From assembly GCA_025738555.1 (NCBI GenBank), contig JAOVFP010000006.1:5890001-5954000 (forward strand): a DNA stretch of 64,000 bases, in the 5' to 3' direction. Positions 17,609-56,700 of this stretch are shown here, piece by piece. Numbering within the stretch: the first letter of the stretch is position 1; each line of letters begins with the position of its first letter. The position numbers were made by a program, and so were the translations under genes. Source of the stretch: Cyathus striatus. Lineage: Eukaryota; Basidiomycota; Agaricomycetes; Agaricales; Nidulariaceae. The notes below the pieces were generated by a model that saw nothing but the letters and a program-made list of their open reading frames with translations, was not told the DNA's origin and did no database searches.

Positions 17609-17611
17609 ACT

Positions 17612-24447: not shown

Positions 24448-24486
24448 ACAGAGATACATCGAAAAATTGAGGTTAAGAATCTTAAG

Positions 24487-28300: not shown

Positions 28301-28958
28301 AATTTTACCTAATTTCAACTTATTCCACCATATTTCAACATATTTTCAAGAATAAGCATTATTAAAGGATGCTTTAGTGTTGAATTAATTGGTTATCTAA
28401 CATGTTGTTTCATAAATAAACAATAAAAATCATTAACATTGGTGTACTACTAGATACATGAACTATGTACTGACTAACATAACTAAGACATTATACATAT
28501 ACAAAGCACCCTTTAATAACCAACATAACATGTACTCAAACATCCACACTCTCAATCATAAAACATATAACATACCTTATACACCAGGTACACCAAATCA
28601 CGAGTCTGTAAACATGATAAGTGCTAGTTGTCACTTGTGAAAATGAAAGAGGAGGTACTTACATACAAAACAACCAGCAACATATGAACTTTAGAAGAAA
28701 GCCAAGAAATCAGAAGTTCTGAACAGTCTAACAAAAGTAAAGGGTGGTGAGCAAAGAGGAGAGCAAGTATCAGATAGCAAGAAAAAAGTTCGAGGTAACA
28801 AGGTGGGGGGTAGGGTGTGGTCCAAGGAGACGAGTGCGTTAAAGTGGGCACACACTGATGGAAAGCAGCCAAACACATCTGAGCGCATTCCATTTCAGGA
28901 AGGGCAGGCAGAGTTTGAGTTAATATACACTGAACTCCCTCAATGTGGTTCCAGACAT
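25335..28958 (-). CDS. Gene B, arm 1 copy (WD40-like and coiled-coil protein)
   Basis: A putative short first exon, MSGTTLREF (ATG at 28958, GCGCC context), is followed by small exons. One encodes VFPDAVFLVSGRLDGTLKLW, a WD40-type repeat (about 28130). Further exons follow with SVMVGYLDMKEITLVKDNPQ (27660), a Pro/Asn-rich linker with repeated NPAP words (26445-26038), a coiled-coil-like stretch (FRALLKNREVERQNDR, about 25880), and a final exon ending YQFDGDT (stop at 25337-25335). The exon model is hand-drawn and some joins are unsure. Function is unknown. This arm keeps the first exon uninterrupted and the linker frame open, so it is the better of the two copies. Confidence 0.5.
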
Positions 28959-29750
28959 GGCGCTGCAGGCAGAGGTAGAGTCTGGGCACAGGTGGAGTCA
29001 GCACAATGGCGGAGGCAGAGGAGCAGGCTTTGAGGATGAAAATGGACGTCGACACAAGCAGGAGATGAAGACACACTTGTACATGTCATAAAGGGGAAGA
29101 GGGCAGAGGAGCAGAAAGGCACAAAGGGCAAGAGGATGGGAGAGGGAGGGAGGGAAGAATAAGCAAGCAGTAAGATTTCATTCAAGTTGAATTCAAGCTC
29201 CGAAGAGCTATGCTGACACATTGACATGTTGATGACAATGTGGCAAATCCAATGTGTCACATGACTGGATTAGACCGGTGCGAACAGAGTTTGAAATGAC
29301 ATAAACGAAATCCTGTCAACTCGTCGTGCATCACTCCCTGGGTGACACATTGACTATGACACATTGACAAGTTCAATTGACATTATGTACTCACTCTTTA
29401 TATATCTCTCCTCTATAATTACTAACAACTACTAAGTACTACAGCCCACTGACAACCTACTTAGGAGTAGTATAGATAATAGTTTCCATAAAAACCATGT
29501 ACTTGATGAAATTCAAAGATATGATTTGCACATAACACTAATGGTGGTCAAATTAAGTTGAACATAATACATTTTAGGGATGTATTAGTATTATCTTTAC
29601 TTATAAACCCTTATTCTGTCCTAACCCAATACTTTATTATCTTAATATTTTCACATTAGCTCAAATAAGCTAAATTTAGTACATATTTAGTACATATTAG
29701 ATACAGTGCACCTTATATTAACTTAAATACACTAAATATGGCTAACTTTT
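28959..29750. other. Arm 1 spacer between gene B and the WD40 gene
   Basis: It contains a pyrimidine-rich tract (minus strand, about 29090-29160) upstream of the gene B start, as often seen in fungal promoters. A low-complexity AT-rich stretch lies at 29575-29760. The open frame at 28940-29260 follows the pyrimidine tract and is not considered coding. Confidence 0.4.
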
Positions 29751-32589
29751 CTAATTTAGCCAGTGGGGAATTTCTTGATGTGTCCGAGAACAATGAGGAG
29801 GTTTGATCCACAACACACACACAACCTGCCCCTGCCTTGTGCTAATTCTTTGAATCTTCTTCCCGGAGTTGGCATTCCAGAGCATAATATAACCATCATC
29901 TGCTGGATGTCAATTAATGCAATTATAACAGTAATTCTAACATGAAATTGTTGTACATTACCTCCGCTGGCAAGGATATCTCCCTCAGTGTTGAGATGGT
30001 ACAATCTTGAAGTACCCAGATCAATCAAGTGTGTTCTCACATCTTCAAGATGCCCAAGAACACCATTATGCGAGAACACTGTAGAACATACATTGTAGAT
30101 TACTGTAGAATATTCTAGATACATTTATGTCTATAAAATACGAAAGAAAATGTGTAGATATAGTTAGTGAATTTACTCCCCATATTTTCCCCACTCCAAA
30201 TCTGTGTGAACCTAAGTTCTCGGTTACTCGCGCACCTCGTCTACACTTTATTTCAGGTGTAAGTACAATACTCAGGAGAGAATCGCAAGAAATTAACTGC
30301 CTGGAAATGCCTGTAACAAGTCAATGCACAATAATACTGAGGAGCCTCATTCACAGGTGTAACTTTCGACATAAGAGCTGCAAGGAATCAAATTTGAAGA
30401 ACATAGTTGGGTGAGTACCCGTGTACTCTCACCTGCATCCTTTAACCAGTTTACAAATAACCTTTGACTCATCTTCGCCAGTCATCTTGGAAGGGGTCTT
30501 ATTATTCAGTAAGGAGTTTGTGATCGTAGACCATTAACACAGGCAATGGAGTTATGCTCTGGCCCTGCAAAAGCAGCCCTCTGCAAAGCTCTCTCGAGAT
30601 TATCCTCAGGTGCTGGCATCAAAGGTGAAGAACTATCATCCGAAGCTGGGTCTTGAATGATTGAGACATTAATCTGAGCATTATATGAGCCATTTAAATG
30701 TGATATTTAGTGATTGTATGAAACATATTTATCTGGAGCTGCTTAGCATGCTTGTTTCGTGTGGTTCTATCTATCAGCATGAAAGATTGATGGTGAATGA
30801 GTATCTCCTAATTCTTTCAATATTCTGACAGTGAAGTCGGCAATGATATCAATTAATGTATGTTTTGTTCAATAGCATGTTTGCCTCTGAGGAATATGTA
30901 CACTGCTCTGCAACTCGAATAACACAGTAGTATTAACCATGACATGCAGAGAAGATGGGAGAATGGTGAACAAAAAGTGAATTTCTACACATTGATTTCT
31001 GCTTATAATGAATTCCTGGAATGCACTGGAATTGAACAAAGGAAAGGTATAAATAATAATAATTAATAAGATGTCCAATCCCATTAGTATGGGCATGTGA
31101 GCAATGAGAGGGTAGCATGGCTAGCATGATGTGTCATGCAATTATGATAGCCAATCAAGTTGATGTTTTTTGCATGCCTCATTATAGCCACATCATGTTG
31201 GCTTGAACTTGTTTAAACAAGAATACGTGTACTACATAGACAGCTCATTTATGAAGGGTATAGCTATGTCTAGTACAAGATATCTATCTCTCTATTTTCA
31301 GCTTCAAGCCACTCCAATGCACGGTCTCTCAGTTTTGTGGACAAATGATTAAGAAATTGTTGCATGTAACTCGAGAGCGACAAGTATCCATAGTAGATAT
31401 GAATCGAAACCCAGTGGCTGAAATCTTTAGCATAACGCTATGTTGAAAACAGCGGATACAATTGCAAGTTTGTCAACTACCCTTGAGAACATTAGTTAAA
31501 TCCAGCAGGAATCCAATGCATGTACTTATGCTAGTAGTATAGGAACGATATACAATGATTAAAATGACAGCTTCTATCATGATCACAAAGCCTCATTGAG
31601 CTACTTCATCATTGGTCAGAATCTTCGATGGGTGTTTGAAATCAAATCATAAATCTAAATTCTGATAAAATGTATGCATGTAAGATTAACAACTTCTTCT
31701 ATGTGTTCTCGCATGCTTCTTTCTGTATGAGGAAGTCATTTAAAATCACTTAATTATGTGTGAAATGATGTTAACTTGCCAACTGCACCCTCCCATACAT
31801 TAACTTGTAGTATCTTATCAGCTATTGCTGCAGCAATGATCTCTCAGTCTTCGATTTGAATGCACTGTTGAAGAGTGACATCAATAATAAAACAAAGGCA
31901 GTAAAAGACCTCTTACCACTAAGGCTTTGACGAAGGCCCTTGGATATTGATAGTGTTAGTGTCTTGAGTCGTGAAATGGATGTAGTACATAAAGTAAATA
32001 CTCACCATTCTCCAGTGTTTGTAGCACCGCTCCAGAGCACACATTCCAAATGTTAATACACCCATTGTGTGAGCCACATGCCACATGATGACCATTGTTT
32101 AGAAATGTGGCTGTGATGGGCTTGTTGCATGATTTATTCATCATGATATGAAACTTCTTCACAAATTGTAGTTTGTCAATTGAATAAACAGTCATCCCGC
32201 CTTCAAGGTGGGATATCAGTATATACTGACAATCCTGGGATAAAGACAAGTAGCCTCTATATTCAGAGGTATATTGTATTAGGAATATCAAAGGCAGTGG
32301 TAGAAACAATGGTGAGGCTTACAAAATTCAGAAAGCGAAGTTATCCTCCATAGTGTCACATTTTCGGTCAGGTTCCAGCAGCTAATAAATAGATATTAGA
32401 ATAAGATTTATTTATATAAAATTTAGATTGGTGTACACAATACTGTGATTAAGATACGTGACAATAAGTTTTGTATCATTGTTGATGAGATGAATACAGC
32501 AGCCACAGATGCGAGTATCTTCATTGTCATCATTCTCCAGAGACCTTGCATCTGGTTTAAGGAGAATATTAGTCGTTGCAAAGTGTTCT
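29751..32589 (-). pseudogene. WD40 repeat gene, arm 1 copy, 5'-truncated
   Basis: Same content as the arm 2 copy at 33653-36491, read on the minus strand. WD40 blade sequences include ICGCCIHLINNDTKLIVTYL (about 32520), LSLSQDCQYILISHLEGGM and ATFLNNGHHVACGSHNGCIN with IWNVCSGAVLQTLENG (32240-32005), IIAAAIADKILQVNVWEG (about 31840), and YHLNTEGDILASGG with DDGYIMLWNANSGKKIQRIS (30010-29840). WD40 propellers are protein-binding scaffolds. The 5' end runs into the central TIR-like block of the palindrome, so N-terminal repeats are missing. A TGA interrupts the fourth block where Arg is expected. Confidence 0.75.
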
Positions 32590-32689
32590 AAAATAGGTCA
32601 GGTACAACAAAAGTAAAAGTGGTCAAATACACACTACTAGTTAGCTTGGTGGCAATACATATTTCAGGTCTGACTCAGTATATTGCACT

Positions 32690-33552
32690 CTCCCACAGTT
32701 ATCACTGGACTCTCACTGGACTCTCACCAGACTATCGAGAGCCTCACTGAACTCTCACTAGACTATCGAGAATCCAGTGAGACTCTCACTGGATTCTCAC
32801 TAGACTATTGAGAATTCAGTGAGAGTCTCACTATACTATCAGTGGAGCACCTAGACTCTATCTGGACTCCACTGAGCTCAAGTGCCTAAGCTGTACTTAG
32901 ACTCTATTGTCACAGTTGTAACATGTTTCCCACAGTCATCACACTTGTCACACATGTGTAAAAGTGTGCCATGTTGGAAAATGTTGGAAAAGCATGATAT
33001 GTGTGACCGCTTTTTCCAACATTTTCCAACATGTCACACTTCATACATGTGTGACAATAGTGTCTAGGTAAAAGGTAAAGCTTAGTCACCACACTTTTTT
33101 TAACATTTTCCAACATGTCACACTTTTCCCACATTTTCCAACCTTTCACATGTGTGTGACAAGTATGATAACTGTGGGAAACACACCACAACTGTGACAA
33201 CAGAGCCTGCATGACATGTCAGAAATGTTGGATGTCACACATATCATGCTTTTCCAACATTTTCCAACATGGCACACTTTTACACATGTGTGACAAGTGT
33301 GATGACTGTGGGAAACATGTTACAACTGTGACAATAGAGTCTAAGTACAGCTTAGGCACTTGAGCTCAGTGGAGTCCAGATAGAGTCTAGGTGCTCCACT
33401 GATAGTATAGTGAGACTCTCACTGAATTCTCAATAGTCTAGTGAGAATCCAGTGAGAGTCTCACTGGATTCTCGATAGTCTAGTGAGAGTTCAGTGAGGC
33501 TCTCGATAGTCTGGTGAGAGTCCAGTGAGAGTCCAGTGATAACTGTGGGAGA
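32690..33552. repeat. Palindrome centre: inverted satellite element and 231-bp spacer
   Basis: The innermost arms carry inverted arrays of a short unit around CTCACTGGACTCTCAC (32700-32880, mirrored at 33365-33545). Inside these are inverted blocks of TGTCACA/TTTTCCAACATTTTCCAACATG words. Mirror symmetry stops at 33005/33237, leaving an asymmetric spacer of 231 bp. No gene is present. The structure looks like a long-TIR element from which, or within which, the duplication was seeded. Confidence 0.8.
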
Positions 33553-37283: not shown

Positions 37284-37499
37284 ATGTCTGGAACCACGTT
37301 GAGGGAGCATGAGTGTTAGCCAATATGATCATAAAAAGCCCTGGCTCCCCTTGATCACCATGATCAAAAAATATGGGGCATTTTATGATCACCTACTATT
37401 GTATGTTTACTAATGAATATATGGGTTACTAATGAATGTCATGGTGATCATAGGTGATCATGCCATGTTTTCAAGTGCATATTAGATAATAGATCATTT

Positions 37500-39230
37500 C
37501 AAGCATCTATTAACATATTATTACTACTAATCATTGTGGAGGTGATCATAGGTGATCATAGGTCATTTCAAGCATATATTCACTTATTATTACTATTAAT
37601 CATTGTGGAGGTGATCATAGGTGATCATAGGTCATTTCAAGCATGTATTCACTTATTATTACTACTATTGATTTTAGTAGTGATCAAAGGTGATCATAGG
37701 CCATTTCAAGTGTGTATTAACATATTATTACTACTAATGAATTTAGTAGTGATCAAAGGTGATCATAGGTTATTTCAAGCATGCATTCACATATTATTAC
37801 TATTAATGAATTTAGTAGTGATCAAAGGTGATCATAGGTCATTTCAAGCATCTATTAACATATTATTACTACTAATCAATGTGGAGGTGATCATAAGTGA
37901 TCATAGGTCATTTCAAGCATGTATTCACTTATTATTACTATTAATGAATTTAGTAGTGATCAAAGGTGATCATAGGTCATTTCAAGCATGCATTCACATA
38001 TTATTACTACTAATGAGTTTAGTAGTGATCAAAGGTGATCATAGGTCATTTCAAGCATCTATTAACATATTATTACTACTAATCATTGTGGAGGTGATCA
38101 AAGGTGATCATAGGTCATTTCAGGCATGTATTCACTTATTATTACTATTAATGAATTTAGTAGTGATTAAAGGTGATCATAGGTCATTTCAAGCATGCAT
38201 TCGTTTTCAAGTGCATATTAGATAATAGATCATTTCAAGCATCTATTAACATATTATTACTACTAATCATTGTGGAGGTGATCATAGGTGATCATAGGTC
38301 ATTTCAAGCATCTATTAACATATTATTACTACTAATCATTGTGGAGGTGATCAAAGGTGATCATAGGTCATTTCAGGCATGTATTCACTTATTATTACTA
38401 TTAATGAATTTAGTAGTGATTAAAGGTGATCATAGGTCATTTCAAGCATGCATTCGTTTTCAAGTGCATATTAGATAATAGATCATTTCAAGCATCTATT
38501 AACATATTATTACTACTAATCATTGTGGAGGTGATCATAGGTGATCATAGGTCATTTCAAGCATCTATTAACATATTATTACTACTAATCATTGTGGAGG
38601 TGATCAAAGGTGATCATAGGTCATTTCAGGCATGTATTCACTTATTATTACTATTAATGAATTTAGTAGTGATTAAAGGTGATCATAGGTCATTTCAAGC
38701 ATGCATTCACATATTATTACTACTAATGAATTTAGTAGTGATCAAAGGTGATCATAGGTCATTTCAAGCCTCTATTAACATATTATTACTACTAATCAAT
38801 GTGGAGGTGATCATAAGTGATCATAGGTCATTTCAAGCATGCATTCACATATTATTACTACTAATGAATTTAGTAGTGATCATAGGTGATCATAGGTCAT
38901 TTCAAGCATGTACTCACTTATTATTACTACTAATCATTGTGGAGGTGATCATAGGTAATTATAGGTCATTTCAAGTGTGTATTCATGTATTATTATAACT
39001 AATCATTGTAGAGGTGATCATAGGTGATCATAGGTCATTCCAAGCATGTATTCACATATTATTACTACTAATAATTCTGGAGCTACTCAAAGGTGATCAT
39101 AGGTCATTTCAAGCATATATTGACCTATTATTATTACTAATGATTCTGGGTATGATCAAAGGTGATCATAGGTCATTTCAAGTATGTGTTGACCTATTAT
39201 TACTAGTAATGACACTAAATATTGTCAACC
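37500..39230. repeat. Left subterminal array, 69-bp unit
   Basis: About 25 direct copies of a 69-bp unit of the form GTGATCATAGGTGATCATAG, GTCATTTCAAGCATGTATTC, ACTTATTATTACTACTAAT... run to 39230. A higher-order duplication of about 253 bp, marked by TTTTCAAGTGCATATTAGAT, occurs at 38202-38454 and 38455-38707; the marker also occurs at 37468. TGATCA recurs twice per unit and could be the transposase binding site. Because 69 is a multiple of three, long open frames arise by chance. Confidence 0.95.
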
Positions 39231-39276
39231 ATGTATGCTGAGCAAATACACATTATATTCTTATCTATCATATATG

Positions 39277-40510
39277 CTTAGCAGCTCTAATTCTAGCATC
39301 TAAATCTACTTTGCATGCTTATCAACCATGTATGCTGTAGAGCACACAATTTGTCTGCAATTCAAAAGTCATGTTTTTCATTACCATACCACATTTTATT
39401 CCTGCCACTGCTTACTCATACATATCATATTCATTAGCTACTTAAATTGTGATATGTACACTCATTGAACTTAGGTTTTTGTTTCCCCCCATTTCAACTT
39501 GAATTGTACCTCACTAGAACTGGTAGATGGATGAATGTCCACTGACTTGCAACATTTCTTTGTGTTGAGGATATTGCCTTGCACATAATCTCCTCCACAA
39601 TGCTCAGCAGCTCTAATTCTAGCATCTAAATCTATTTGTATGTTAAGCAGCTCTAATTCTAGCATCTAGTTCTACTTGTATGCTTGGCAGCTCTAATTCT
39701 AGCATCTAGTTCTACTTATATGCTTGGCAGCTCTAATTCTAGCATCTAAATCTACTTGTATATTAAGCAGCTCTAATTCTAGCATCTAGTTCTACTTGTA
39801 TGCTCAGCAGCTCTAATTCTAGCATCTAAATATACCTGTATATTAAGCAGCTCTAATTCTAGCATCTAAATCTACTTGTATGTTAAGCATCTCTAATTCT
39901 AGCATCTAGTTCTACTTGTATGCTTGGCAGCTCTAATTCTAGCATCTAAATCTACTTGTATGTTAAGCATCTCTAATTCTAGCATCTAGTTCTACTTTTA
40001 TGCTCAGCAGCTGTAATTTTAGCATCTAAATCTACTTGTATATTAAGCATCACTAATTCTAGCATCTAGTTCTACTTGTAAGCTCAGCAGCTCTAATTCT
40101 AGCACCTAAATCTACTTGTATGCTTGGCAGCTCTAATTCTAGCATCTAAATCTACTTGTATATTAAGCAGCTCTAATTCTAGCATCTAGTTCTACTTGTA
40201 TGCTCAGCAGCTCTAATTCTAGCATCTAAATCTACCTGTATATTAAGCAGCTCTAATTCTAGCATCTAAATCTACTTGTATGTTAAGCATCTCTAATTCT
40301 AGCATCTAAATCTACTTTTATATTAAGCAGCTCTAATTCTAGCATCTAGTTCTACTTGTATGCTCAGCAGCTCTAATTCTAGCATCTAGTTCTACTTGTA
40401 TGCTCAGCAGCTCTAATTCTAGCATCTAAATCTACTTGTATATTAAGCATCACTAATTCTAGCATCTAGTTCTACTTGTAAGCTCAGCAGCTCTAATTTT
40501 AGCATCTAAA
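39277..40510. repeat. 40-bp satellite array
   Basis: Tandem units of 40 bp, CAGCTCTAATTCTAGCATCT followed by AGTTCTACTTGTATGCTCAG, or by the variant AAATCTACTTGTATATTAAG. About 23 copies lie between 39598 and 40510, with an isolated copy at 39277. The two variants partly alternate. Confidence 0.92.
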
Positions 40511-41208
40511 TCCATGAACAATTTGTCACTCAGCTTTGCAGCACTTTGTTAGCTTTATAAAGCTAACAAAGTCTGGTAACAATTGCTGAACTCACAAAGC
40601 TATGAAATCCAAAAGCTATGTCCTTTTACCTGATCAGCCCTTCTGTATCACATCTGCAGCTCTAGTTTTAGCATCAAAATCCACCTTGTATGTTACACAG
40701 CTCTGTAGCAGGGATTTAAGGGGAGTAGTGAAGGTGCTTTTGGTGGATTAAGGGTAGAGATGGAAGGTTAAGAATATAAACAGTTAGTTAAGGTTCTTGC
40801 CTGTGCAAGAGCTTTAACTTATACATGAGTTAAGCAGTACTGAGTATTAAGTGGATACGAACAGAAGTACACTAAGTTTCTATGGCTAGAAGCTTAGTGT
40901 GAATAACAGATAAGTGCTGTGTGTAAATCAGACTGGAATTGACTGAGGAGTGTAGCTGCATGAGTGGGGTTTATATACTTTATGAAACTACCTAGGTAGA
41001 AAGATGTACCATAATTAATAATACAGTAAGTAAGAGTAATTTTTAGAAGAGGAATTTAGATAAAGGTAAAGGAAAAAAGAAAAGAGGAAAGGAATATGTA
41101 TAAAGGGCACACAGCAGCATTGGAGAAAGTAATACTGATGCAAGCACTTTGCCAAGCATTGTGATTGGTCAGTGCTAAGTCACGTGCCCCTCACTTTGGG
41201 AAGGTACA
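40511..41208. other. Unassigned DNA in the KDZ element
   Basis: No gene seen. A few further CAGCTCT words (about 40660-40705) are decayed satellite. A small hairpin (AGCTTTATAAAGCT) lies at 40551-40564. Confidence 0.4.
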
Positions 41209-41822
41209 GTGTTTTCTTTGGTGTGTCATATTCAATTAGTAAGGATCAATGATTGTTTATGACTGTCTCTCCATTCATACTAATATTCAATTAGTAAGGA
41301 TCAATGATTGTTTATGATCACCTCACCATTCATACAATAATAATATTCAATTAGAAAAAATCAATGATTGTTTATGATTGCCTCACCACCATTCAATATT
41401 AATATTGGATTAGAAAACATCAATGATTGTTTATCATCACTTAATACATTCATACAATAGTAATATTGATTTAGAACTTCAATGATTGCCTATGATCACC
41501 CAATGCATCTATACAATAGTAGTATTCAATTAGATAAATCAATGATTGTCTATGATCACCTAATACATTCATACAATAGTAGTATTCAATTAAAAACAAT
41601 CCAGTGATTGTTTATGATCACCTAACCATCCATACAATAGTAATATCCAATTAGAAACAATCAATGATTGCTTATGATCATTTAATACATTCATACAATA
41701 GTAGTATTCAATTAGAACCTCAATGATTGTTTATGATCCCAATCATAAAATAGCATGGCTTATTCGATTGGGGCAATCATATAACACTGCTGTTATATGA
41801 TCAGAATGGCTGGCACTTATGG
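41209..41822. mobile_element. Probable 0.6-kb TIR element nested in the KDZ element
   Basis: The right end at 41780-41822 carries TGATCAGAATGGCTGGCACT, the complement of the family terminus. It encloses about nine copies of a 60-bp unit (ATTCAATTAG... TCAATGATTGTTTATGATCACC). AATGTACA at 41823-41830 and AAGGTACA at 41201-41208 may be a target duplication with one change. The left terminal motif is not recognisable, so the left border is uncertain. Confidence 0.5.
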
Positions 41823-41859
41823 AATGTACAGTTGTGCATAGTCTGGTAGAGCTTCGATG

Positions 41860-44698
41860 TCATCACCGGTGCTAGCAATCAAGCTGTCTCTATCCGAAAT
41901 AGTTAATAATACATATATGGTTAAGTTTATTATGTGACATCGGACTTACGTTGGTGAATGATCCCGATTGCCAATGTCAGTATTCCTGTCAAGTGAAAGA
42001 AGTTAATCCGAATATTCGGTAATGAGACCTGAAGACTGCAACATACAATATGGCTTCCCCTGTGCTTGCAACATCAACAGATCGGCAAGGCACAGCACTA
42101 GTACAATAAAAAGTTATGGTCAGATGACAAAGACATACTCTAAGCACCTAGAGACCGTAATATACCTTTCAATGTGTGTGTGAAGTTCGTTCCTGTTGTC
42201 AGGTTCAGGGCTGGAAGTGATTAGCTTGAAAACACAGCAAAGAAGAGAATCACAACTCACGCTAGCCGTCTAGATCAATCTTTCCGGGCTTTCTGTGACT
42301 TCTTGGAATGTTTGACTGTTTTGGCAAGACTCGGTGGTGAACATTGGGACATAGAGTGGCCATCAGGGGCAGTATCCTGTCCAACAGCTGGCAGTGTGGG
42401 CCCTACCGCTTGAGTTGTGTCTTCATTATATTCATGTCCTGCTTCCTCATCTACCTCACCCTCACCATTCCCACCATCGCAAGTGCCAGCAGAAGTTGGT
42501 GTGGCTGAGTGTTGTTCCAGACTCCCTTCAAGGCTTCGAGATTTGCAATCATCTACAGCTGGGCATATTTATTAGCACAAGTAAGCACCAGATAATATTA
42601 AATCACGTTGTAGTGTACTTACAAAAGCATCCACAAAGGAAATCATCGAAATTGTCACTAACTTCTTTCGCAAAAATCGTGCTCCCCATCTTTGATTCCC
42701 ATGTATCTCTATTTTTATCCGTGCCACAGTGGAAACTGCATGATCATGTATGGTGAGTACCACGAAAGACAATGGGCCAAGGTAACATTGACTTACATCA
42801 TAGTTTGCATATCCCCACCTAAAAGCGGACGAGGTTAAAGTACCTAGTTTAGCGCAACGTAGTATAAATTAAAATATGTATAATTTCACTCACACCACGT
42901 ACGCTCACTAAGAAAGTGCTCGGTGGGTAAGACTCGGATGCAGGACGCGTCCGGGCGAAGTAAGGTAAAGTAAATGGTGTCGAAGACCGACGCACAAGAT
43001 GGAATGCGTGCTTAGCGAATGCTTTGATGCGCGTTTGATGCGCGTTCCTTAATCTCGGACTTAGCACGGGCTTAGGACTTTGACTCTCGTTACACTCAGA
43101 ATCTCAAGCTCGCACAAATACTCTCGCAGAACTGCTTAATGGTATTTCTCGGGGCACAGGAGACTGCTCTCCCTCTACTTTACTCTACCTATTAAATATC
43201 ATACAGGACTACGGCTAGAGGAACTATATAGTTAGGACAAATACAGTAATTTACATATTAGCTAAGCAGTAAGATAGACTTTTGGACTGGATACAGACGT
43301 CTGGGATGGACCAGAGTAATTCACGCATGTACAAACATACGAGCGCCAAGAATGCGTTCATATGGGAAGATAGCGAAGAACAATAAATCGTCCTGCAGGA
43401 AGAACGCTCCATACGGAGGCGTGATGCCGCGCGCTTTGACTCGTGGAAATGGGAACCGCTGAATCAGCCTGCCGGGAATGCCGGATCTCAGGCCAGGCTA
43501 GGCGCCTATGGCGTGCTGATGCACAGCGCTGGTACAGCGTGGTTAGATAGCGGCAACTGCCGTGGGTCTAGTGCTCATGCCTTTTCCTATGACGCGATAA
43601 CATAGCTTCGATATCCTATTATTAGAATAGACGCGCGCTTAGCTCGATCTCCGGCCTTACTGGTAACTATTTCCCACCGATGTCGAGAATAAGCTCTGAC
43701 CTCGGTGTTTCTATTCTTAGACGCTTTCCTACTTAGGCTAGTTATGTCCCTTATTAGCGCGAGTCGTTCCCACGCTAGCTAACGGTCCGGGACCTCTACC
43801 TTAGCTAATAATTACAACCCAGATATATTATACCGTTTGTAAGTAGCGCGTAGAATATAGAAATAATGTTTTTATAGTAGGTAGAAGTACGCTAGGCGTA
43901 TTAAGGTCCACCTGCCAAAACTGTGAATTTCCAGCCAGTGTTCTTTGAAAATTCTTCTATTGCTGAAGCAAGTGTTGCACGCAACTGCCTAATTGATCTA
44001 CATATTGCATGTAAGTGAATAGCTACAATCTCAGCATTATCTGTCATAAACTTACTTCTCGTACCATTTGTTACGGTCTTTGTCAGTATCCATGTCATCA
44101 ATAGTTACATGGCTGCTTTTGCGTGCTGCTGCATGAATTTCTTGGACTTCTGCTACAACATCTGCAGTTTCATTGGCATAATGGTGGCAAATGAGAGCGC
44201 TCTCAATTTCGAGCTGTGACTTCACATTCTTGGTGTTTGCTGGCAATGTTGAAAGGTACCTGTGCCATGCATCCTCCAATAAGGGCTGAAGATGATCGAT
44301 ATACAAGGTCCTATAGACCTGCCACTCTTGTAATGTCCGCTTTCCAGATGGTTTGAGAATACCTCGCATTGTGGTAGTTGAATTGCGAATGCTGTTATGA
44401 AACCACCTGCTCAGTTGCTACAATGGGGCAAGTTGTGAGTCTACAGTATGAATAATGTTTCTTAAGTGCTGTCACTTACTTTGCACCTCTTCGTCCACTT
44501 ATTAATCTTTGCGTTTGCACCCCACTCACACTTTTCCCTCTTGCTCGGTGTTGGCATACCCCACTGATGCAAGTAATCGACATATAAGTCTGCGAGCCAG
44601 GGCGTTGTCATACCATTGGCCTTTGCATCCAAAAACCCAAATATTCTAGCTTCAAGCCATAGCCGTTGCCCTTTTGTTGTTCATGAACGCGGCATTGT
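41860..44698 (-). pseudogene. Cargo gene of unknown function in the KDZ element
   Basis: A minus-strand gene begins MPRS, TGA, TTKGQRLWLEARIFGFLDAK at 44698. It continues ADLYVDYLHQWGMPTPSKRE to a donor near 44480. It resumes with the frame at 44369 (MRGILKPSGKRTLQEWQVYR, LQPLLEDAWHRYLSTLPA) and then, after a short gap, EEFSKNTGWKFTVLAGGP at about 43950. The last type of block is common in uncharacterised agaricomycete proteins (recollection). The gene is then cut by a CpG-rich insert (42860-43905). A Ser/Gly-rich tail (EGEVDEEAGHEYNEDTTQAV, about 42440) ends in a basic stretch near 42260. Function is unknown. The TGA after MPRS could be a mutated CGA. Confidence 0.45.
42845..43903. mobile_element. 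CpG-rich insert in the cargo gene
   Basis: About 1.06 kb with frequent CGCG, GCGC and CG words, quite unlike the flanks. TTAA occurs at both borders (about 42835 and 43903). The ends are weakly inverted (AGTACCTAG at the left, complement of TACGCCTAG at the right). No coding region is visible. Borders and class are uncertain. Confidence 0.4.
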
Positions 44699-44699
44699 A

Positions 44700-46060
44700 T
44701 GTTACCGGGGAGGTATGAAGTCTAGGGATGTGGTGAAAGACGTCAATGTGGAAGGGGATATGTGGTGACTTCGACAGTGAGGGTTGAGGTGTAACTAAGA
44801 AATACGTGGCAGAGGATATGAGTCAGTACAAAATCGAACGATTATTACTTCCTCGGTTCGTTGCTGTGATACATATGCTAAAGTAATTCAGTTGGGACAC
44901 GATTTTTCGGAATATCCAGCATTGATGCAGCAAGCTTACGTTTACAGAGGTCCCTAGCTAATCAATGTTGATTAGATGGTTGAATGGCTTTGGCTTCTAT
45001 CATTGAAGGGATTGTTGGGTTATCGTACCATGGTGTGTTAAGTGGAAGCATTCAGCCTCCAAATCCAGGAGCTGACTTATTTTTTCCAGTTTGAACTTTG
45101 ATGTGAGCTTGCTTCAGAGCCGCCGAGATGGAGCATAGTCAGATTCAGCAAAGCCTTTGTAGTTGTGAGTGGGGTCATATTGACTTTGTTCCACAGAATA
45201 TTTGCAATAAGTAGTTACTAGTCTCCTTCATGTAACAAAAATCATAATTAAAACATAGTAATAGTAAGAACTGCCCGCAAAGACCAAAGCTGCCTTAACT
45301 GGGATGTCCGTTGGTAAGGTAGATATATCGGATGGTCGAAGGTGATGCCAGAAAACTGTGCCAGGGACCCCCAATAGTGCAGCCGGTCAAACTGTTTTAG
45401 TGTAACTATGGATCTTATATATGCACTGCATTAGCTGTGTATTAGGGCAATCGTGTTGCAGGTAGCCGTCTTAACCTCCAGCTTTCATTACAATGTATGT
45501 AGACCATACATATGTAGAACACATTTTCCTCATCGTAAAACTGTAAAACATCGGTAAAACATGGGTAAAACGAAAGAAAATAATCATTATATCTACTACT
45601 GATATACAACATATGCTATCGAAAACATATCTCTCATACTAACATGATGCTCCATGTCGCCAAAAAGCCTCCCATAGTGTGGAGGTAACTCAAGGATGTG
45701 TGGCGAGCGTCGCACCTGGCCTAGTAGATGGTACTACACTAAACCTAGAATAGAGTATTTAGTGAATTAATATTAAGTCGAACACTTAGCTCGACAGATT
45801 CCCAGTAGCGGTGTTGTGTTGACACTTCCAATCGACATCTTAGCTCAGTTAAACTTAGTGGGCGCACACAAAGATGAAGTCCAAAAGGGAGGTGAACTTG
45901 CCATAAGTGTTTTCTAAACTATATACATGTGCGGCATGGTGAAAGGAATAGCACATGTGTCCTTTCATGTCGCCAGAGCCCAGAATACAGAATAGGTACG
46001 CGAAGGAATGTGAAACATATAAAAAATGAACCATAACGCGAAAAAAAAAACAGAATTCGG
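44700..46060. other. Unassigned DNA in the KDZ element
   Basis: Scattered short frames only. I see no motif, repeat array or splice-consistent gene. Confidence 0.4.
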
Positions 46061-48440
46061 TAAGGTAAAAAGATATGGTAATAAGAGAGACCGTTCATTT
46101 ATAAAGAAAAGAATTAAGAGAGCTCACCGCTACGACTACCCTTTAGGACCTATGAACGACGTGGCTACACACACTGGACGCAACCAAAAACCATGACACT
46201 AGAGCAAAGACGAGAAAACTGCTACCCTCCCCAAGGTAGCAGCGAAGTGGTCTAGACTGCGGCTCAACATGTGTATGGATGGCGGTGGGGTGCTCAGCAA
46301 GGCCCTTCGGCCGTTGGAGTACTCGTAATGAAAGTGACGAAGACAATACCTAGATACGTGAGCGATAACAAAAGAGGGTAAAGAAAGATGATCGAAAGGA
46401 ATCGAGATGAATGGATAATTACTGTCCCAGAACCTCAACATGAAGACCCTTCATTCCACCAGCGATATAGACATAAGCAGAGAGCAGCACTCCGGTTGCC
46501 GCACTCTGGTGGTTGAATGTCTGGTCTTGAGTCGTCGCCAATGCAAAAGTCTTGAGGAAGAAAGAAGGGTAACGAGTGGGCGGGTAACCCTAAACCCTAG
46601 CCTTTGAGCAGTCCGATGGGCACATTGTGCCAAGAAGATCCACACTTCGCCTTACGCAGTCTTGAGGGCGAAGGTTCGAGGCCTAGGTAGCAAGAAGATG
46701 GAGAAAAGTGTTAAGTAAAACAGAGGAATAATTGAGACGCGTTGAAAGCGACGCGACAGCACGTAGGCGAAGTCACGTGGTGTTTGGCATCAGCTGCGCC
46801 GAGTCTCTAAGTCCATCGAAAATAAGAAAAGGAGCATAAATCCCAATGCACTGGATGGCGTGAAGCAAAACTGGGTAAATATAAACAAAGATATAGTAGG
46901 TTATAGTCAGTATGGATAAGCAATTAGATATAAAAGTGAAAATAAATGGAATAATCGAATTATAAGTATTATACTGGGAAACACCAGTACGCCATCTTCT
47001 TCCAGCTACATACCCATAACCCCCTCATGTCATTCCACACTTCCCATATTGTCCTTCTGATACACATGCAGTAGAAGTCTGCATTCAAAGACCGTTAGCT
47101 TCAGGGTTACAAAACGAAAGGAACAAAGGTAGAAACAAAGGAGATGAGTCTACATAAGAGGACAAATATAACAAAGAACTGGCGGAAAGAGAGAACGAAA
47201 AAAGAAAGAGGACAGGAGGGGTGGAGAGAGACGTACCAGCTTCCCAGTCCCCCCGCCGTCGACACCAAGCCGAATGTTGCACTTCGTGAAGGAGAGAAAA
47301 CAGGTGGTGAGAGGTGTGACACTCAATGGTGACGGAACTTCGTCAGATTCAGCACATGTACATATGTCTTCGAGATTCCAATATTCATACGTATGCCAGG
47401 AGAAACGGTAGCGAGAGGTGGAGAGGTCGAGCTTCGATTCCATTCAATGTACTGACAGTGAAAGGGAGGAGACTCGAGAGGGACAGAGTGTCGAGTTTAC
47501 ATTCTGTCTATATGCCACGAGATAAACAGCCACGAGGTGGGGAAGACTCGAGAGCGAGGGGTGTATTATTGAGTTTCAATTGTCCATACATATGCCAGCA
47601 GAAACAGCGGCAAGAGGAGGACGAGACTCAAGAGGGAGTTCCGTTCTCCATAACAGCGGCGGGAGGGAGACTTGAGGAGGATGGTACATCTGCTTCTTCA
47701 TCTGCACCGAAGCTTAATAATTTCATGTTCCTATCATATAATTATCAGCATATCCTTTCTTGAAGCGAGAAGAAAGAGAAACAAATGAACTTTTTAGCAC
47801 CCCTCTGCCTTCCTCCTCCCACTCCCACTGCGCCTATTCATGCGCATCGAGCTGCACGCACTCCTCTTTTGCTGTGATGTGGGGTATGCTGCCATCAAAT
47901 GGGTTATCGATTGTTGGAATGGGTTTTGTTTTCAGTGGGCTGGTATTGTGTTGTCAGTATCTTGCGTAATAGCGGGAGAGAGGCGAGAGAGGGACATACT
48001 ATACAGGTCTCTTGTTCTTATCGATTTCTATGTATAATGTAGATTAGCAAGGAAGGAGGGGAGAGGGAGAAAGTGTTCTTACATATCGTCCGAATAGAGT
48101 GCGTTTGCCGTGTAGTTCGTCCACTCAGTCTGGAGGTGACAATGAACAACGCAGTGTAAGGGGGTGATGGTGAAGAGACCAGAGTGGGGGGTGAGTCGTA
48201 AAAGTTCACAGGTGCAGTGGGAATGAAAGTTCTTCGCTGATGTGTTGACATGCATAGACACGACACATGGCATTGACAGGTGGCATCGCTTGGTGACCTT
48301 TCTGATTGATCAAGGTCTATTAATATATTCTGACCATTCACTTCAGTACGTCTTATCAAGGAGGCTGTGTGCACACTAGCGCCTCGTGGTCTGATAGATG
48401 AGGGTCATTTGATTTATGTTGATATCGATCGCATCATCAT
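46061..48440. other. CpG-rich segment with degenerate repeats
   Basis: Composition is richer in G, C and CpG than the surrounding element. Around 47390-47690 there are about three diverged tandem units sharing ATGCCA, GAGAAAC, a purine-rich GAGAGGTGGAG block, and GACTCGAGAG. Several overlapping short frames on both strands show no family signature. It may be another recent insertion, but no borders are clear. Confidence 0.35.
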
Positions 48441-48526
48441 TACATGGGTAAGGGAATTTCGAAGACATACCAGTGCAAATTTGGCAGAAACATTGCAAAT
48501 TTGCACCTTGCTATCGACCGCGTGAT

Positions 48527-51500
48527 ATGGGTAAGGGGATTTCAAAGATATGGCAAAGGTCTAAAGGTACATGCACAAAATTGGCACAAATGTTATAAAA
48601 TGAACATTGCATATTATTGAACTCTTCCTTTCACTCAATCACCCACTGTCCACTCTATTTCTTCCTACCACCTACTGTCTGTTATTACAATAGCTCGAAA
48701 GCGTTGTAGTTCTTCAAGTGCACCTGAAGGATCAGCAACTAGTCAAAAACGGTTACGGAGTTCATCAAGTGCAAGATCTTCTAATATTTCTATTCAGTTC
48801 CGTCCAACTGCTCGATCTCATGAATCTGCTCAAGCATTAAATCAAAATAAAAGCTCTAGTGTGCCATATCCCTCATCCCATGCTACATCACTTACTACTG
48901 GTGTGGGTGAATCAAGTCAGACATTAAGTCAAAATCAAGGCACTAGCACAAGCTTGGCTCGTGCTTTACCTCATATCACATCATTTAAAATTGGTACAAA
49001 CAAATCAAGTCAAGTATTAAAGAGGAATAAAACTACTAGTGCAGCTTACAGAACATCACATATTTCATCAATTGTTATTAAAGAAAGCCAAAGCAAGAAT
49101 AAAATTGAAAAGGTGTCAAAGAGAAAGCGTACTACTGAGCATCCTGTACTGGAAGAGACTCTAACTCAAAATGATGAGCAGTCATTTCAGGAAATGGAGA
49201 TTGATGATCATCATGAAGAACAGATATTAGTAGTTGAATCCAGTCATGATCGGCCCTCACAACCTAAGCGGCAACGCAATCAAAAATCATCTGTAAGCAG
49301 AAAAAATTGAATAATGTAACAAAGCAGCTAAATCAATTATGTAGGCAAAACTAACAGAGTGGTTGAAATTTAGAGATGTATTTCTTGATGAACTTCTTCG
49401 CCATGATGGCAAGGGAGATTATATCAATGAAGCAAATTGTTCAGTGTGTGAGAAAGAAAGTGGCATTTATAAATGCATTGATTGCTTTCATGGAGGTTTA
49501 CTACGATGCAAAAATTGTATGAAAATAGAACATACACATTTACCACTTCACAGGGTAGAGGTGAGATGAATTGCTTATTACTGTGCATTATTTAAAGCTT
49601 ACAGCTTCTCAGAAGTGGAATGGGCAATATTTTGTGAAGGAATCACTCAAAAATATTGGACTTCAAATACAACTTGGACATGGAGGAGCAGCTTGTTTGA
49701 ATGCAGACAGTGCTATAACCAATATGATTGTTGTTGATATCACTGGAGTTCATTCTGTTTCAATTTCATTCTGTAATTGCAGACCTGAACCCATTCCACG
49801 ATATACACAATTATTGAGGGCTCATTTGTTTCCAGCAAGTTTTGTAAGACCTCAAACTGTAGTTACATTTGAATGCCTTGAAACATTCCATGAACTTACA
49901 CTGCAAGGAAAGATTTCTTTGTATGATTGGTACCATACCCTTTGCCGAAAAACTGATAAATGCAAGTTGGAAAATGAAATTGTGAGCAGTAAACATGAAA
50001 CTTTCAAACTGCACATGTACTAACATATTTATAGAATCGCTACAATGAATTTAGATATATAGTACGAATGTGGAGAATTCTTTTCATGTGTAAGCGAGGT
50101 GGCCGAGGTCAATCTACTGAGGGTATTATGGGTACAAAACTAGGGGAGCTTACAGTGGAATGCCCTGCATGTCCCCATCCTGAGAAAAATCTTCCTGAGG
50201 GTTGGGAAACAACAGAATCAATGAGGTATGCCTAGTTTATTATACTTGAAATAATTTAATTAATTATTTTAAAGATATTTGTATGTTATGTATTTGGCAA
50301 TTGATGCAAATTTTAAATTGAGCTGCAAGGAGCGTGGCATTCAGGACATTGAGCTCATGCCTGGGTGGGGTCCTTTTGTTGAAGATAAAAGTTATCAAGA
50401 ACACCTTGGAAGTCACATTGAAAATCCAGAAGTATGTAATATGCCTTTTCTTTACACAGATCTGATGGATTTCAATAGATCAATACTTGTGACTCAGCTC
50501 ATGATGCAATTCTTCAAGCTGGAATACGTTCAGCTCCTGGCCATTCAGTGACTGGAACGGGACTTGTAATTTGTTCCAGACATACCTTAATTCGTGCAAA
50601 TGGTGCTGGTGATTTACAGAAAGGGGAACGGCAAGTATAAATTGTTAACTATTACAACTTGAATATTTATAACCTTGATAGATACTGCAACATTGACTAC
50701 ATTTTACTTTCAACACTTGCTAGTGTTAATCTTCCATGGATTATGATCACATATGATATTGGATGTCAGTGGTCAAAAAATTTATGGCAGCGAATAAATT
50801 CATACCCTGAGTCTATGAGAGTTTCTCCAAATACAAAGATTGATGTTGGAGTTCCTTCTTGGCATATAAATGGTCATGGAAGTTCATGTCATAGCAATTT
50901 TGCATTGGCATATTTGCCAGGAGCTGGCAGAACTTGTGGGGAGGAAGTTGAAACTACTTGGTCCAGTAGCAATCATCTTCGTCCAAGTACACGTGAAATG
51001 GGTCCAGCAGCACGTCATGAAGTGCTCAATGACCATTGGACTGACTGGAACTTTCAAAAGTCAATTGGCTTTCATTAGTGTTTCACTTTACTATGTGATA
51101 TATATATGAATTGATTACTACAGGCAAACTTTTTCTTAAAAAATATAATGAAGCTGTTCAAATGAGTAAAAAGCAAAAAGATATATTTGATAAATTCAAT
51201 GCTACATTCCTACCTAGTGTAACAGCTAAGTGGGAGTCTCAACTTATAGCATGGAATCTTGACCACACCAACCCAAATCCATATGATGAACCAGAGTGCA
51301 GTAAGTTGAAATTTTATACAAAAATGAAGCTAATATATTGTTAGAAATCACTTTGCAGGATGTGAGACTTGAGCTTACACGTGAAGAAGCTTCAGATACT
51401 AAAAAAGGAATCACCCCAAAACATAAGATGACCTTGACAAAACTTTTACTTGTTGGGTTTGAATTGGAAGAGCAACAGTATGTCAAAAGTTACAAGAACT

Positions 51501-52649
51501 GTACAGTAACTGACATTATATAACAGATTCAAACTTAAACTTAAGATTTCAAAGCTGGGAAATAAACCAACATCAACTCAATTAGCTGATATCGAAGAAA
51601 AACGCATTGCTCTTAGCACACACATTAAAAACTGGCAAGAAGTTCAAATAGTCTATATGCCAGAAGTGGCTGATCTATTGGCATCCACATCAATTAATAA
51701 TAGTGGTGACAACATTAAAACTGAGTTGCTTCCATTATATCTTCCTTCATCTCTTCCAATTCAATTACACACTAACTCAGGAGTCAAAAAAGCAGCGGAT
51801 TCAGAACTAAAATTAAGGCTTGCAGTAGCTAATGATACATTGGCTGAAATTCGACGCCATTTACGAATAACCTCAACTGTACGGTTATTTAAGAGGCTTA
51901 ATACATCTGGAACAGGAAATAAGTCAAATACTCGTATGCGGAAGTTGCATGCAAGTTATAAAGCAAGAGTAAAAGTTTATGCTGATCAATATCAATTGGC
52001 ACATTCTGCAATGGCTAAACTTGATCCGAATGGAGAATGGAAAGAATATTTACTTGAGATTAAAAAAGAGGATTTAAAAGGACCAGAATATGAATCTAAT
52101 GATTCATCAAGCAATGGGTGACATGTAATGTCATGGATATGGCTTGTATCTCGCACATCTTCCAAGGGAGATAATAGTGAAAATGAAGTAAATGATAGTT
52201 TAAGAGTGGAATGGGCAAAATCTCGTGCCAGAAGAGACAGATGGTTGGAAGAATTACATATCCTTAGAGAGGAGATGAGACGTGTTATTCAATATTATGA
52301 GTGGAAAGAAAAATGGTGGAGAAACATATGCAAAACAAGAAACAATGAAAAAAATATTGGTTCTGATATAAAACAAGGTGTTATGGCATATGCTTTAAAG
52401 CAAGCATCAATTTTTAAGATGTTAGCTAAGAGCTGTGCTGAGTGGTGGCTACCTGCTTTTCAAAGAGACAACTACATCCCAGATTGGAGTAAAAAATATA
52501 TTACATCAAATGCACTTTTATCTTCACATGTCAAATCGAGCTCTGAAAGTTCAGAAGAAGAAGTTGGTGATGATAGTGAAGATGATTGGGAAGATGAGCA
52601 AGATACAACATTTGAAGATAATTTGGATCTATTTGATCCAGTAGGTTAG
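48527..52649 (+). CDS. KDZ (Kyakuja-Dileera-Zisupton) transposase
   Basis: A DNA-cutting transposase of the KDZ superfamily with an RNase H-like core. Proposed exons: ATGG at 48527-48530, 48694-49292, 49345-49560, 49613-49981, 50035-50225, 50275-50431, 50479-50630, 50682 to about 51076, about 51125-51300, 51345-51477, and 51527-52649. The N-terminus is basic and Ser-rich (ARKRCSSSSAP). A CxC2-type cysteine cluster lies at 49430-49560 (CSVCEKESGIYKCIDC, CKNC, H..P.H). Core motifs are WNGQYF, LRAHLFPAS, YLAIDANF (probable first Asp), GDLQKGERYCNIDY, YDIGCQW (probable second Asp), STREMGP, and the C-terminal SWIWLV and EEMRRV helices. One in-frame TGA lies at 52119-52121, before SWIWLV, compatible with a mutated CGA. 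One junction near 51076 is unclear. The acidic tail ends at TAG 52647. It lies near the right end of the 16.58-kb element and is the likely mobiliser of the whole TIR family. Confidence 0.9.
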
Positions 52650-52804
52650 GAATAATACCAACAAACATAGTTCTAGTATAGTTTAGAATATGTGTATATA
52701 TGCCTCATGTACTTCTTTCCATTATATAAATGCTACATTATAAATTGTTGGCATGTGACTATTTATTAGCATTGATAATAAGCTAGTATGCACTTGAAAT
52801 TGAG

Positions 52805-53790
52805 GCATGATCATCTATGATCACCTACACAATGATTAATAGTAATAATAAGTGAATACATGTTTGAAATGACCTATGATCACCTATGATCACTACTAAA
52901 TTCATTAATAGTAATAATAAGTGAATACATGCTTGAAATGACCTATGATCACCTATGATCACCTCCAGAATGATTAGTAGTAATAATATGTTAATAGATG
53001 CTTGAAATGACCTATGATCATCTATGATCACCTCCAGAATGATTAGTAGTAATAATATGTTAATAGATGCTTGAAATGACCTATGATCACCTTTGATCAC
53101 TACTAAATTCATTAGTAGTAATAATAAGTGAATAGATGCTTGAAATGACCTGTGATCACCTATGATCACCTCCAGAATGATTAGTAGTAATAATATGTCA
53201 ATAGATACTTGAAATAACCTATGATCACCTATGATCACTACTAAATTCATTAGTAGTAATAATAAGTGAATACATGCTTGAAATGACCTATGATCACCTA
53301 TGATCACCTCCAGAATGATTAGTAGTAACAATATGTTAATACACAGTTGAAATGGCCTATGATCACCTTTGATCACTACTAAATTCATTAGTAGTAATAA
53401 TAAGTGAATACATGCTTGAAATGACCTATGATCACCTATGATCACTGCTAAATTTATTAGTAGTAATAATAAGTGAATACATGCTTGAAATGACTTATGA
53501 TCACCTATGATCACCTCCACAATGATTAATAGTAATAATAAGTGAATACATGCTTGAAATGACCTATGATCACCTATGATCACCTCCTCAATGATTAATA
53601 GTAATAATAAGTGAATACATACTTGAAATGACCTATGATCACCTATGATCACCTCCAGAATTATTAGTAGTAACAATAAGTGAGTACACACTTGAAATGA
53701 CCTATTATCTAATATGTACTTGAAAACATGGCATGATCACCTATGATCACTATAACATTCATTAGCAACCCATATATTCATTAGTAAACA
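52805..53790. repeat. Right subterminal array, 69-bp unit (inverted)
   Basis: About 13 copies of the complement of the left-array unit, with CCTATGATCACCTATGATCA and TTACTATTAATCATT-type blocks, end about 80 bp before the right terminus. The mirror arrangement with 37500-39230 is typical of subterminal transposase-binding repeats. Confidence 0.95.
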
Positions 53791-56700
53791 CACAATAGTA
53801 GGTGATCATAAAATGCCCCATATTTTTTGATCATGGTGATCAAGGGGAGCCAGGGCTTTTTATGATCAAATTGGCTAACACCCCTCGAGGGAGTTCAGTG
53901 TATATTAACTCAAACTCTGCCTGCCCTTCCTGAAATGGAATGTGCTCAGATGTGTTTGGCTGCTTTCCATCAGTGTGTGCCCACTTTAACGCACTCGTCT
54001 CCTTGGACCACACCCTACCCCCCACCTTGTTACCTCGAACTTTTTTCTTGCTATCTGATACTTGCTCTCCTCTTTGCTCACCACCCTTTACTTTTGTTAG
54101 ACTGTTCAGAACTTCTGATTTCTCGGCTTTCTTCTAAAGTTCATATGTTGCTGGTTGTTTTGTATGTAAGTACCTCCTCTTTCATTTTCACAAGTGACAA
54201 CTAGCACTTATCATGTTTACAGACTCGTGATTTGGTGTACCTGGTGTATAAGGTATGTTATATGTTTTATGATTGAGAGTGTGGATGTTTGAGTACATGT
54301 TATGTTGGTTATTAAAGGGTGCTTTGTATATGTATAATGTCTTAGTTATGTTAGTCAGTACATAGTTCATGTATCTAGTAGTACACCAATGTTAATGATT
54401 TTTATTGTTTATTTATGAAACAACATGTTAGATAACCAATTAATTCAACACTAAAGCATCCTTTAATAATGCTTATTCTTGAAAATATGTTGAAATATGG
54501 TGGAATAAGTTGAAATTAGGTAAAATTAGGTGAATCAAAGTTGAAATAAGAGGGGGGCCAATCCTAATTTGCCTAAAACAACTTATAGGCCTTAATTTTG
54601 CTTAATTTTGCTTTAATTGCCTTTAAATTACTATTCATTGCTTATATATTGCTTTACTGTAGTTATTTCTCCTAATCATGTATGTTAGGTATTTCCTGAT
54701 GCAGTATTTCTTGTGTCAGGGAGGTTGGATGGCACATTGAAACTATGGCGGAGCACAAAACAGGTACTCACATATACCTATATAACTTCTTTTGACCCTT
54801 CTGACTTATTTACTAGTCTGCATTTGAACTGTACTGTGCTATCATGGTGCTTGATATCCCAATAGAAGATATGGACTCAGTAGATACACGATTGGCTGTA
54901 GTGGGAAGAGGTAAATGCTGTTTGCTGCTGGTTGTCACTGAAGAAAACAATGGTAAGTTGACCGTTTCCCCTGAGCATAATTATAAATGATCTATCATCT
55001 TATTTTATAAAATATAGCAAAATTTCATTTGCTCGCATATGATGGGTGCGAAGCTTTCAGTGATCCCTCATCTCGTGTGCTTCAATCTCGATCAAGTGGA
55101 GCCTGTGATGTACCCCATAATTGAAGAGGTTTACCTTGATCTGTTACCTTTTACAATAACGGTCAGTCTGTGATGGTTGGATATTTGGATATGAAGGAGA
55201 TAACGTTGGTCAAGGACAATCCTCAGATACCTAACTCAGTAATGGTTGCCTGGCCTTGCTATAGACAGGCTATGGGACACAAGCCAACCACTTGGAAGAT
55301 GCTGTCCAAAATGGAAAGAAGAAAATTGAAAGCAGTGTCCAGGTCTGTACACGTGGGTACCAAAAGTGATGGCAGTTCCCACACTTAAGGAGAATAACAT
55401 GTTGTATTATTTCAAGTCTAGTTTATCACCCATTTCCTGGAATGTGTTCTAACTTTATATATATGTTGACCATTGATGTATGCATAGGAATGCAAATTTT
55501 AGGCATCATGCAACTATTCAATAGTGTGTTATAAGGTATTTATATATAAATATGCACTCTCATTCTGTAACAAATCAATTGAATTATATAATTTTTTGTG
55601 GGTTTCAGAATGCCACAATTCTTGTCTAAACTATAGTATACATACTCTGTAATCTATATCCAAAGTTATAAAAATGTGCTCCCATTCAACTATGAGAAAC
55701 ATGAGGATTAATATTCATCACACTGAATTAGCTTGTGTGGTTCATTCTCTACTACAAAATACTACCAACAACTGAAACAATGATAGCTTTTCAACTGTTT
55801 ATTCAGATCCTACAAAAACATATTTAGGGAACCACTGAAGAAGTTCTAAAGTCGATCTTCAATTCAAACCCCCTTCTCAAATCTGCGAGTTCGCAATACA
55901 AAGAGGCATGTGAAAGTGAAACAGAAACAGAATCTGACAGTGCATATCCCAGAACAGATTCATCTCGCAATCCTAGTCAGCATGAGGATAGCGGGGTGGA
56001 AGAAGTTATCTCAGAGTCAGTGCAATGTGACAAGGTATCAACGTTCACTGATTTTTGCTGATGACCATCATTCTAATCATATTTGATAGCTGGACAGTAA
56101 CAAGAGCATAAATCTGATGGATTTGGACCCTTTGGAATATATTAATGAGGAGGTTGGTGATGGCATGAAAGAAATACAGTTGGCACAGACAGACAAGGTG
56201 TGTTCACTGATATTGTGCCAAGTGCTTCATTCCAATGTAATTGATAGCTTGATGGTACCAACACCATAGTTCTGATGGATTTGGATGCTTTGGTATGTAT
56301 TTACTTTCATAAAGGCATTCGACACTTTAATTATAATTAATAGCCTAGCGGTAGCAGCCAACAGAAACTAGGCCCTCAGTCATTGAGTGCCAAGGTGCCG
56401 CCAATCATTGATTGGAATGGATTTTGGATATGTCCACAAGTGACTAATGAATCAGCATTCCAGCCCCCAAATCCTGCCCCCAAATTCTACTGGCCGAATA
56501 TATTTAATAGGCCTAGTAAAGTTCCCACTCCTGCAGACAATGCCATACCCAGCCAACAGCCAAATCCAGCTCCCATAAACAATACCACAGTCGACCAACC
56601 ACTGAATCCCGCTCCTCTAAGTCAACCACTGCTGCTAAACAATCAAATCCTGCTCCTATTCAGATTGCTACAGCCATTGAAAAGCCAAATGTCCAGAATG

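Follow-up and report, generated by a model that had tools for sequence, protein, structure and literature searches.

A 64,000-nucleotide stretch of the Cyathus striatus genome (assembly GCA_025738555.1, contig JAOVFP010000006.1, positions 5,890,001 to 5,954,000; hereafter the window) harbors a cut-and-paste transposon of the KDZ family, 16,579 bp in size (5′-CATGAG…CCCCTC-3′; 37308–53886), which very likely entered one arm of a recent inverted duplication, generating a 7-bp repeat of its target. Along with a predicted KDZ transposase gene, the element carries the remnant of a second gene, the companion, which is a frequent divergent neighbour of KDZ transposase genes in this genome. The exact definition of a KDZ border is not new, and the novelty of the element rests on its companion gene and its anatomy. 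The source genome comprises 107.45 Mb in 24 contigs, and the window corresponds to C6:5890001-5954000; other copies are named by their contig (C2, C3 and so forth).

The borders are derived from two inverted matches which together form a palindrome, with 24482–28941 matching 58345–53887 (99.91% identity) and 28935–33007 matching 37307–33234 (99.83% identity). Arm 1, without the element (24482–33007, minus strand), is separated by a 226-bp spacer from arm 2, with the element (33234–58345, plus strand). The two matches share exactly seven bases of arm 1, the empty site with its single copy of the GAGGGAG bases (28935–28941, minus strand), and in arm 2 GAGGGAG is found on either side of the element (37301–37307 and 53887–53893). 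This overlap is the signature of an insertion into arm 2 with a 7-bp target-site duplication (TSD). The initial annotation had reported a gain of exactly 16586 bases in the second arm and ends at 37308 and 53886; the arm matches fix both ends, and the gain is accounted for by the 16,579-bp insert and one copy of the 7-bp duplication. Its description of the element as complete with an allelic empty site holds with regard to both ends and the existence of the site, but that the site is allelic is unproven, as it is found in the opposite palindrome arm. Compared with the joined flanks of arm 2, arm 1 shows 11 differences over approximately 8.5 kb, comprising seven substitutions, five of which appear by eye to be CpG to TpG/CpA changes, and four one-base indels. 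A 1.5-kb arm probe produced full-length matches at two places, namely the two arms (40 of 94 candidates scored). The arms also contain dispersed repeats, which are matched by parts of the same probe.

Near-identical arms would also be produced by an assembly join of two haplotypes, as is known in dikaryon assemblies, in which case the empty site would represent the other allele rather than a second copy on one chromosome. The four indels, all located in or beside short homopolymers, are in keeping with such a join, but both arms stop abruptly against unlike sequence (at 24482 and 58345) and a spacer lies between them, and we consider a join unlikely. The borders and the duplication stand under either reading. 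It is furthermore conceivable, but highly improbable, that the site was filled before the duplication and that arm 1 subsequently lost the element by precise excision. Cut-and-paste elements do excise; arm 1, however, holds exactly one TSD copy free of any footprint, and insertion into arm 2 alone requires fewer events.

Other copies in the genome have the same ends. A 173-base probe of the left end identified 79 matching stretches, many of which occur as inward pairs (40 of 221 candidates scored), while patterns for the two end types, with up to two mismatches allowed, gave 144 and 328 genome matches, as against none for the reversed control patterns. From the matches listed (100 of each), 29 elements with flanks in reach were paired by hand. 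An exact 7-bp duplication flanks 17 of the 29 insertions and a match of at least 6/7 flanks 21, while exact matches at 5, 6, 8 or 9 bp were observed in none. As such, of the 7 or 8 bp initially proposed for the duplication, 7 bp stands and 8 bp is rejected. When the pairing of ends was shuffled 2,000 times, a mean of 0.73 and a maximum of five exact 7-bp duplications were obtained, against the 17 observed.

Twenty-two of the tested elements are smaller than 6 kb, and the remaining seven, including the window copy, are 15.7 to 20.4 kb in size. The other six long copies are located at C2:4272055-4292479, C3:694360-712028, C8:2527481-2546998, C12:1707320-1723760, C13:701243-718644 and C6:5313940-5329681. 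The duplication is present in five of the seven (at 6/7 in C2) and absent in C12 and C13, the latter of which has one TCACTA-type end. A KDZ match lies inside each of the seven, a count which was not blind, as C6:5313940 was picked for its known KDZ match and C12 and C13 for adjacent hits to the terminal inverted repeat (TIR) and KDZ. The flanks of the copies are dissimilar to one another by eye. Two outcomes which the initial annotation had named as contrary to its reading did not arise: the termini of other copies coincide with those of the window copy, with no homology extending past 37308 or 53886, and the seven long TIR pairs, chosen as stated, each enclose a KDZ match. Within the window, a 1,450-bp element at 9056–10505 shares both end types, is flanked by a perfect 7-bp duplication (GATTTTC), and is probably a short, non-autonomous relative. 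Another GAGGGG-type end occurs at C6:5957066, 3 kb past the window.

The element starts with CATGAG at its left end, and the minus-strand sequence of its right end is GAGGGG. The first 175 bases of each end were compared (37308–37482, plus strand; 53712–53886, minus strand). The outermost five bases are unlike and unpaired (CATGA and GAGGG), while bases 6 to 175 pair at 164 of 170 positions, and the TIRs of the initial annotation are thus present. Pairing is similar in C2 (166/170) and C3 (165/170), while the comparison for C8 aligned out of register. Also present, as previously described, are inverted subterminal arrays of a 69-bp unit, with about 25 copies with inward GTGATCAWAG motifs on the left (37485–39212, plus strand) and about 13 copies in the opposite orientation on the right (52807–53709, minus strand). 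Of 12 elements inspected, which include short ones, 11 have GTGATCAWAG facing inward at each end; in the remaining one, the short element of the window, it occurs at one end. The motif is absent from the 45.8 kb of the window outside its two elements. The arrays look like binding-site arrays and may serve as such. Two further arrays within the element, with a 40-bp unit (39600–40512) and a unit of approximately 60 bp (41228–41738), lie in stretches which are mostly unaligned in other copies.

The transposase gene (48690–52649, plus strand) was modelled with ten exons, comprising 1,168 codons and a stop, and is collinear with a close relative, P0001. A CxC2 zinc-cluster region (49345–50023, plus strand), with a Pfam match within the frame 49565–50023 (e-value: 1.3e-39), lies upstream of the catalytic core. 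The KDZ catalytic region (50275–51067, plus strand) is supported by a match to PF18758 in the window frame 50641–51078 (e-value: 1.1e-40) and a full-domain match in P0001 (e-value: 7.3e-58). The candidate catalytic acids are D, D and E, with codons starting at 50303, 50755 and 50950, respectively, and the region can be assigned on these conserved acids to the predicted RNase-H/DDE catalytic fold. On the basis of its sequence, the element is a KDZ DNA transposon, whose predicted transposase combines a CxC2 zinc cluster with an RNase-H/DDE-type core. The gene had been annotated as nearly intact, but the start codon of its relatives is lost, with ATA at the start site, and a premature in-frame TGA is found at 52119–52121. 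An intron at 52118–52177 which would hide this stop was dropped, as other copies read through the codon and P0001 is collinear there. A PDB sequence search with the transposase profile produced no match, nor did Foldseek at an e-value of 0.001 or below. One protein search identified 144 transposase relatives, and 61 of the 120 listed were aligned. Among the relatives found, the closest annotated ones of both the transposase and the companion are Cyathus striatus proteins. A genome search for KDZ gave 159 matches, part of which were listed and merged by hand into 91 or 92 loci.

The companion gene was read as seven exon blocks in the C3 copy. All seven could be recovered in four of six diverged loci (L059, L060, L063 and L064), six in L061 and four in L062, which supports the gene model. 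The remnant in the window copy is located at 41823–44695 on the minus strand, with exons at 44480–44695 (containing one stop), 44055–44417, 43904–44041, 42624–42737, 42278–42553 and 41823–41987. The sixth is partial and the last exon was not found in the window copy. Its third exon is interrupted by a 1,068-bp insertion (42836–43903) with AGGT on both sides, which is absent from the C3 copy and has no match in the other loci fetched. When exons were joined, five of the six companion composites contained one to three stops, including C3, where the count takes in a read-through intron.

In the genome, companion exon 2 has 57 matches, and a hand-blended query for the last exon gave 73. After merging, 55 of 78 companion loci are located within 20 kb of one of the 91 listed KDZ loci, 53 of them head-to-head, while random placement on the same contigs (1,000 trials, with the sizes of C15, C17, C21 and C23 guessed) put a mean of 3.4 and a maximum of ten near KDZ. 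Conversely, a companion is located within 20 kb of 56 of the 91 listed KDZ loci. With exon 2 alone and 92 KDZ loci, 47 of the 57 matches are near KDZ, 45 of which are divergent, against 1.9 expected. The head-to-head pairing is retained across subfamilies down to approximately 33% amino acid identity in exon 2. The ratio of nonsynonymous to synonymous substitution rates (dN/dS) is 0.11 to 0.22 in inter-subfamily comparisons with a computable dS, values which are rough as dS is near saturation, and 0.33 to 0.53 among five close copies. Taken together, the pairing and the low dN/dS indicate that the predicted companion travels with this KDZ group and that purifying selection has acted on it. The initial annotation was correct in placing a second gene inside the element, but "cargo" ill describes a gene which so often accompanies KDZ in divergent orientation across this genome.

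The companion has no convincing match in Pfam or NCBIfam (best Pfam e-value: 0.021), and its structure model is poor (mean predicted local distance difference test score: 49.6). A six-sequence profile searched against 5.8 billion proteins identified two Cyathus striatus proteins (3,893 candidates), while the spliced C3 companion found no homolog among 4,329 candidates in a search that depends on shared five-residue words and does not thereby show absence elsewhere. Companion-like hypothetical proteins may exist in other mushrooms. A TET/JBP protein was considered as the product of the second gene and rejected, as the companion lacks a Tet_JBP match. A genome search for Tet_JBP (PF12851) was also without a match, with its controls equally silent.

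Three copies (the window copy, C13 and C6:5313940) have the transposase close to the GAGGGG (GAGTGG) end, and four (C2, C3, C8 and C12) have it close to the CATGAG end. Compared with window positions 37308–53886, the genes of loci L009–L018 and L022–L023 fall into two orientation groups relative to the ends, L022–L023 being the C13 copy, which lacks a duplication and has an unusual TCACTA-type sequence at one of its ends. Such a flip of the interior would result from recombination between the inverted arrays. Members bearing the duplication occur in both orientation groups, and the transposition machinery therefore seems indifferent to the flip.

The window copy is decayed, with the transposase start lost, one stop in its frame and the companion truncated. 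Among five aligned copies, in two-state columns without gaps, variation affects 108 of 158 majority-CpG columns, compared with 394 of 4,183 "other" columns and 73 of 793 TpG/CpA columns, which suggests that CpG-directed mutation probably erodes the copies, as expected of methylated DNA. Under a stricter count, restricted to changes which occur in a single copy and whose neighbouring bases are unchanged, CpG losses amount to 15 of 427, and to 0 of 135 in the window copy, so that the majority of CpG losses are either common to several copies or recurrent. We propose that the element entered one arm of an inverted duplication which had formed recently, with 7 bp of target duplicated, that the arrays may be bound, and the ends paired, by the CxC2 region, the companion protein or both, and that the DDE core would cut and join. 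The window copy itself was probably moved in trans by better-preserved relatives, because the arms are approximately 99.9% identical and yet both of its genes are damaged.

We read the companion, at approximately even odds, as a second transposition protein. More tentatively, and at somewhat less than even chances, a KDZ branch in at least one agaric lineage may be a two-component transposon, in which a CxC2-KDZ transposase and a needed, hitherto undescribed divergent companion would assemble the ends on long inward GTGATCA-bearing arrays, and whose interior could flip without loss of mobility. The companion could instead be a passenger, found near KDZ through shared ancestry alone and with no role in transposition. 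Thirty-five of the 91 listed KDZ loci have no companion within 20 kb, the truncated companion of the window copy sits in a cleanly inserted element, and five of the six composites contain stops, all of which agree with a passenger. A neutral passenger should, however, decay or vanish over divergence such as that across which the head-to-head arrangement and low dN/dS are maintained (approximately 33% identity in exon 2, and where dS is computable), making this explanation doubtful, if possible. It is also rather improbable that the companion shields the element from host silencing, as has been proposed for TET/JBP on other fungal KDZ elements. Counter-silencing would pay given the strongly elevated variability of CpG columns in these copies, and TET/JBP genes ride several fungal KDZ lineages (PMC12730594), but the companion matches neither Tet_JBP nor, convincingly, any Pfam family.

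Additional features of the window include three arrays of a different, 64-bp unit at 15243–18995, possibly another element family, and an open frame at 6769–7299 with a weak DUF4218-like match (e-value: 0.001, below the cut-off), perhaps the remnant of another transposase. Rfam at gathering thresholds gave no match.

Two-protein DNA transposons are known in En/Spm (TnpA/TnpD) and MuDR, the former also with subterminal repeats. They share two element-encoded genes with the system proposed here, but their transposase families are unrelated, and nothing linking the companion with the accessory proteins of these systems turned up, with no search aimed at such a link. The founding paper on KDZ is reportedly that of Iyer et al. 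in 2014, and to our knowledge the mechanism of KDZ transposition has been little studied. Zisupton and Dileera belong to the same Pfam transposase family, and Zisupton also has TIRs, but Zisupton and a Dileera family have 8-bp TSDs (PMC12730594), against no exact 8-bp repeat among the 29 insertions here. The same source describes two Laccaria Kyakuja families which have 7-bp TSDs and CA..TG termini, lack TIRs and carry a TET/JBP gene. The element resembles Kyakuja of Laccaria bicolor in its 7-bp TSD (17/29 exact; 21/29 with at least 6/7), its left end beginning with CA and its Agaricomycetes KDZ transposase. It differs in its termini (CATGAG..CCCCTC, and CATGAG..CYCTC in most copies), in its TIRs of at least approximately 170 bp (164/170) and in that no TET/JBP was found, the controls of the genome search being silent too. 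The Cryptococcus elements KDZ1-3, as described in the available part of PMC12810828, similarly have a KDZ transposase with a CxC cluster, TIRs (139 to 241 bp) and single-base insertion evidence, having been caught inserting into the reporter gene FRR1. They are, however, 9 to 11 kb in size, with a CxC1 domain, TSDs of 8 bp (KDZ1) or 4 to 8 bp (KDZ2 and KDZ3) and no companion gene named. With these insertions and the complete Kyakuja and Dileera families with TSDs (PMC12730594), the initial remark on the scarcity of fungal KDZ elements whose borders are linked to a transposase is out of date. No such combination of TSD and TIRs, asymmetric outer five bases, arrays or companion gene was noticed in the available descriptions of PMC12730594 and PMC12810828, nor was such a companion found in the titles and abstract beginnings of open-licence KDZ literature, in a search hardly aimed at the companion protein.

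The element has a TSD of Kyakuja-like length together with TIRs, the latter being absent from the described Kyakuja families. KDZ elements are frequent in mushroom genomes, as reflected in the 144 transposase relatives obtained in one search, and the exact borders, recurring 7-bp duplication, short elements with the same ends and second conserved gene make the requirements for KDZ mobility testable.

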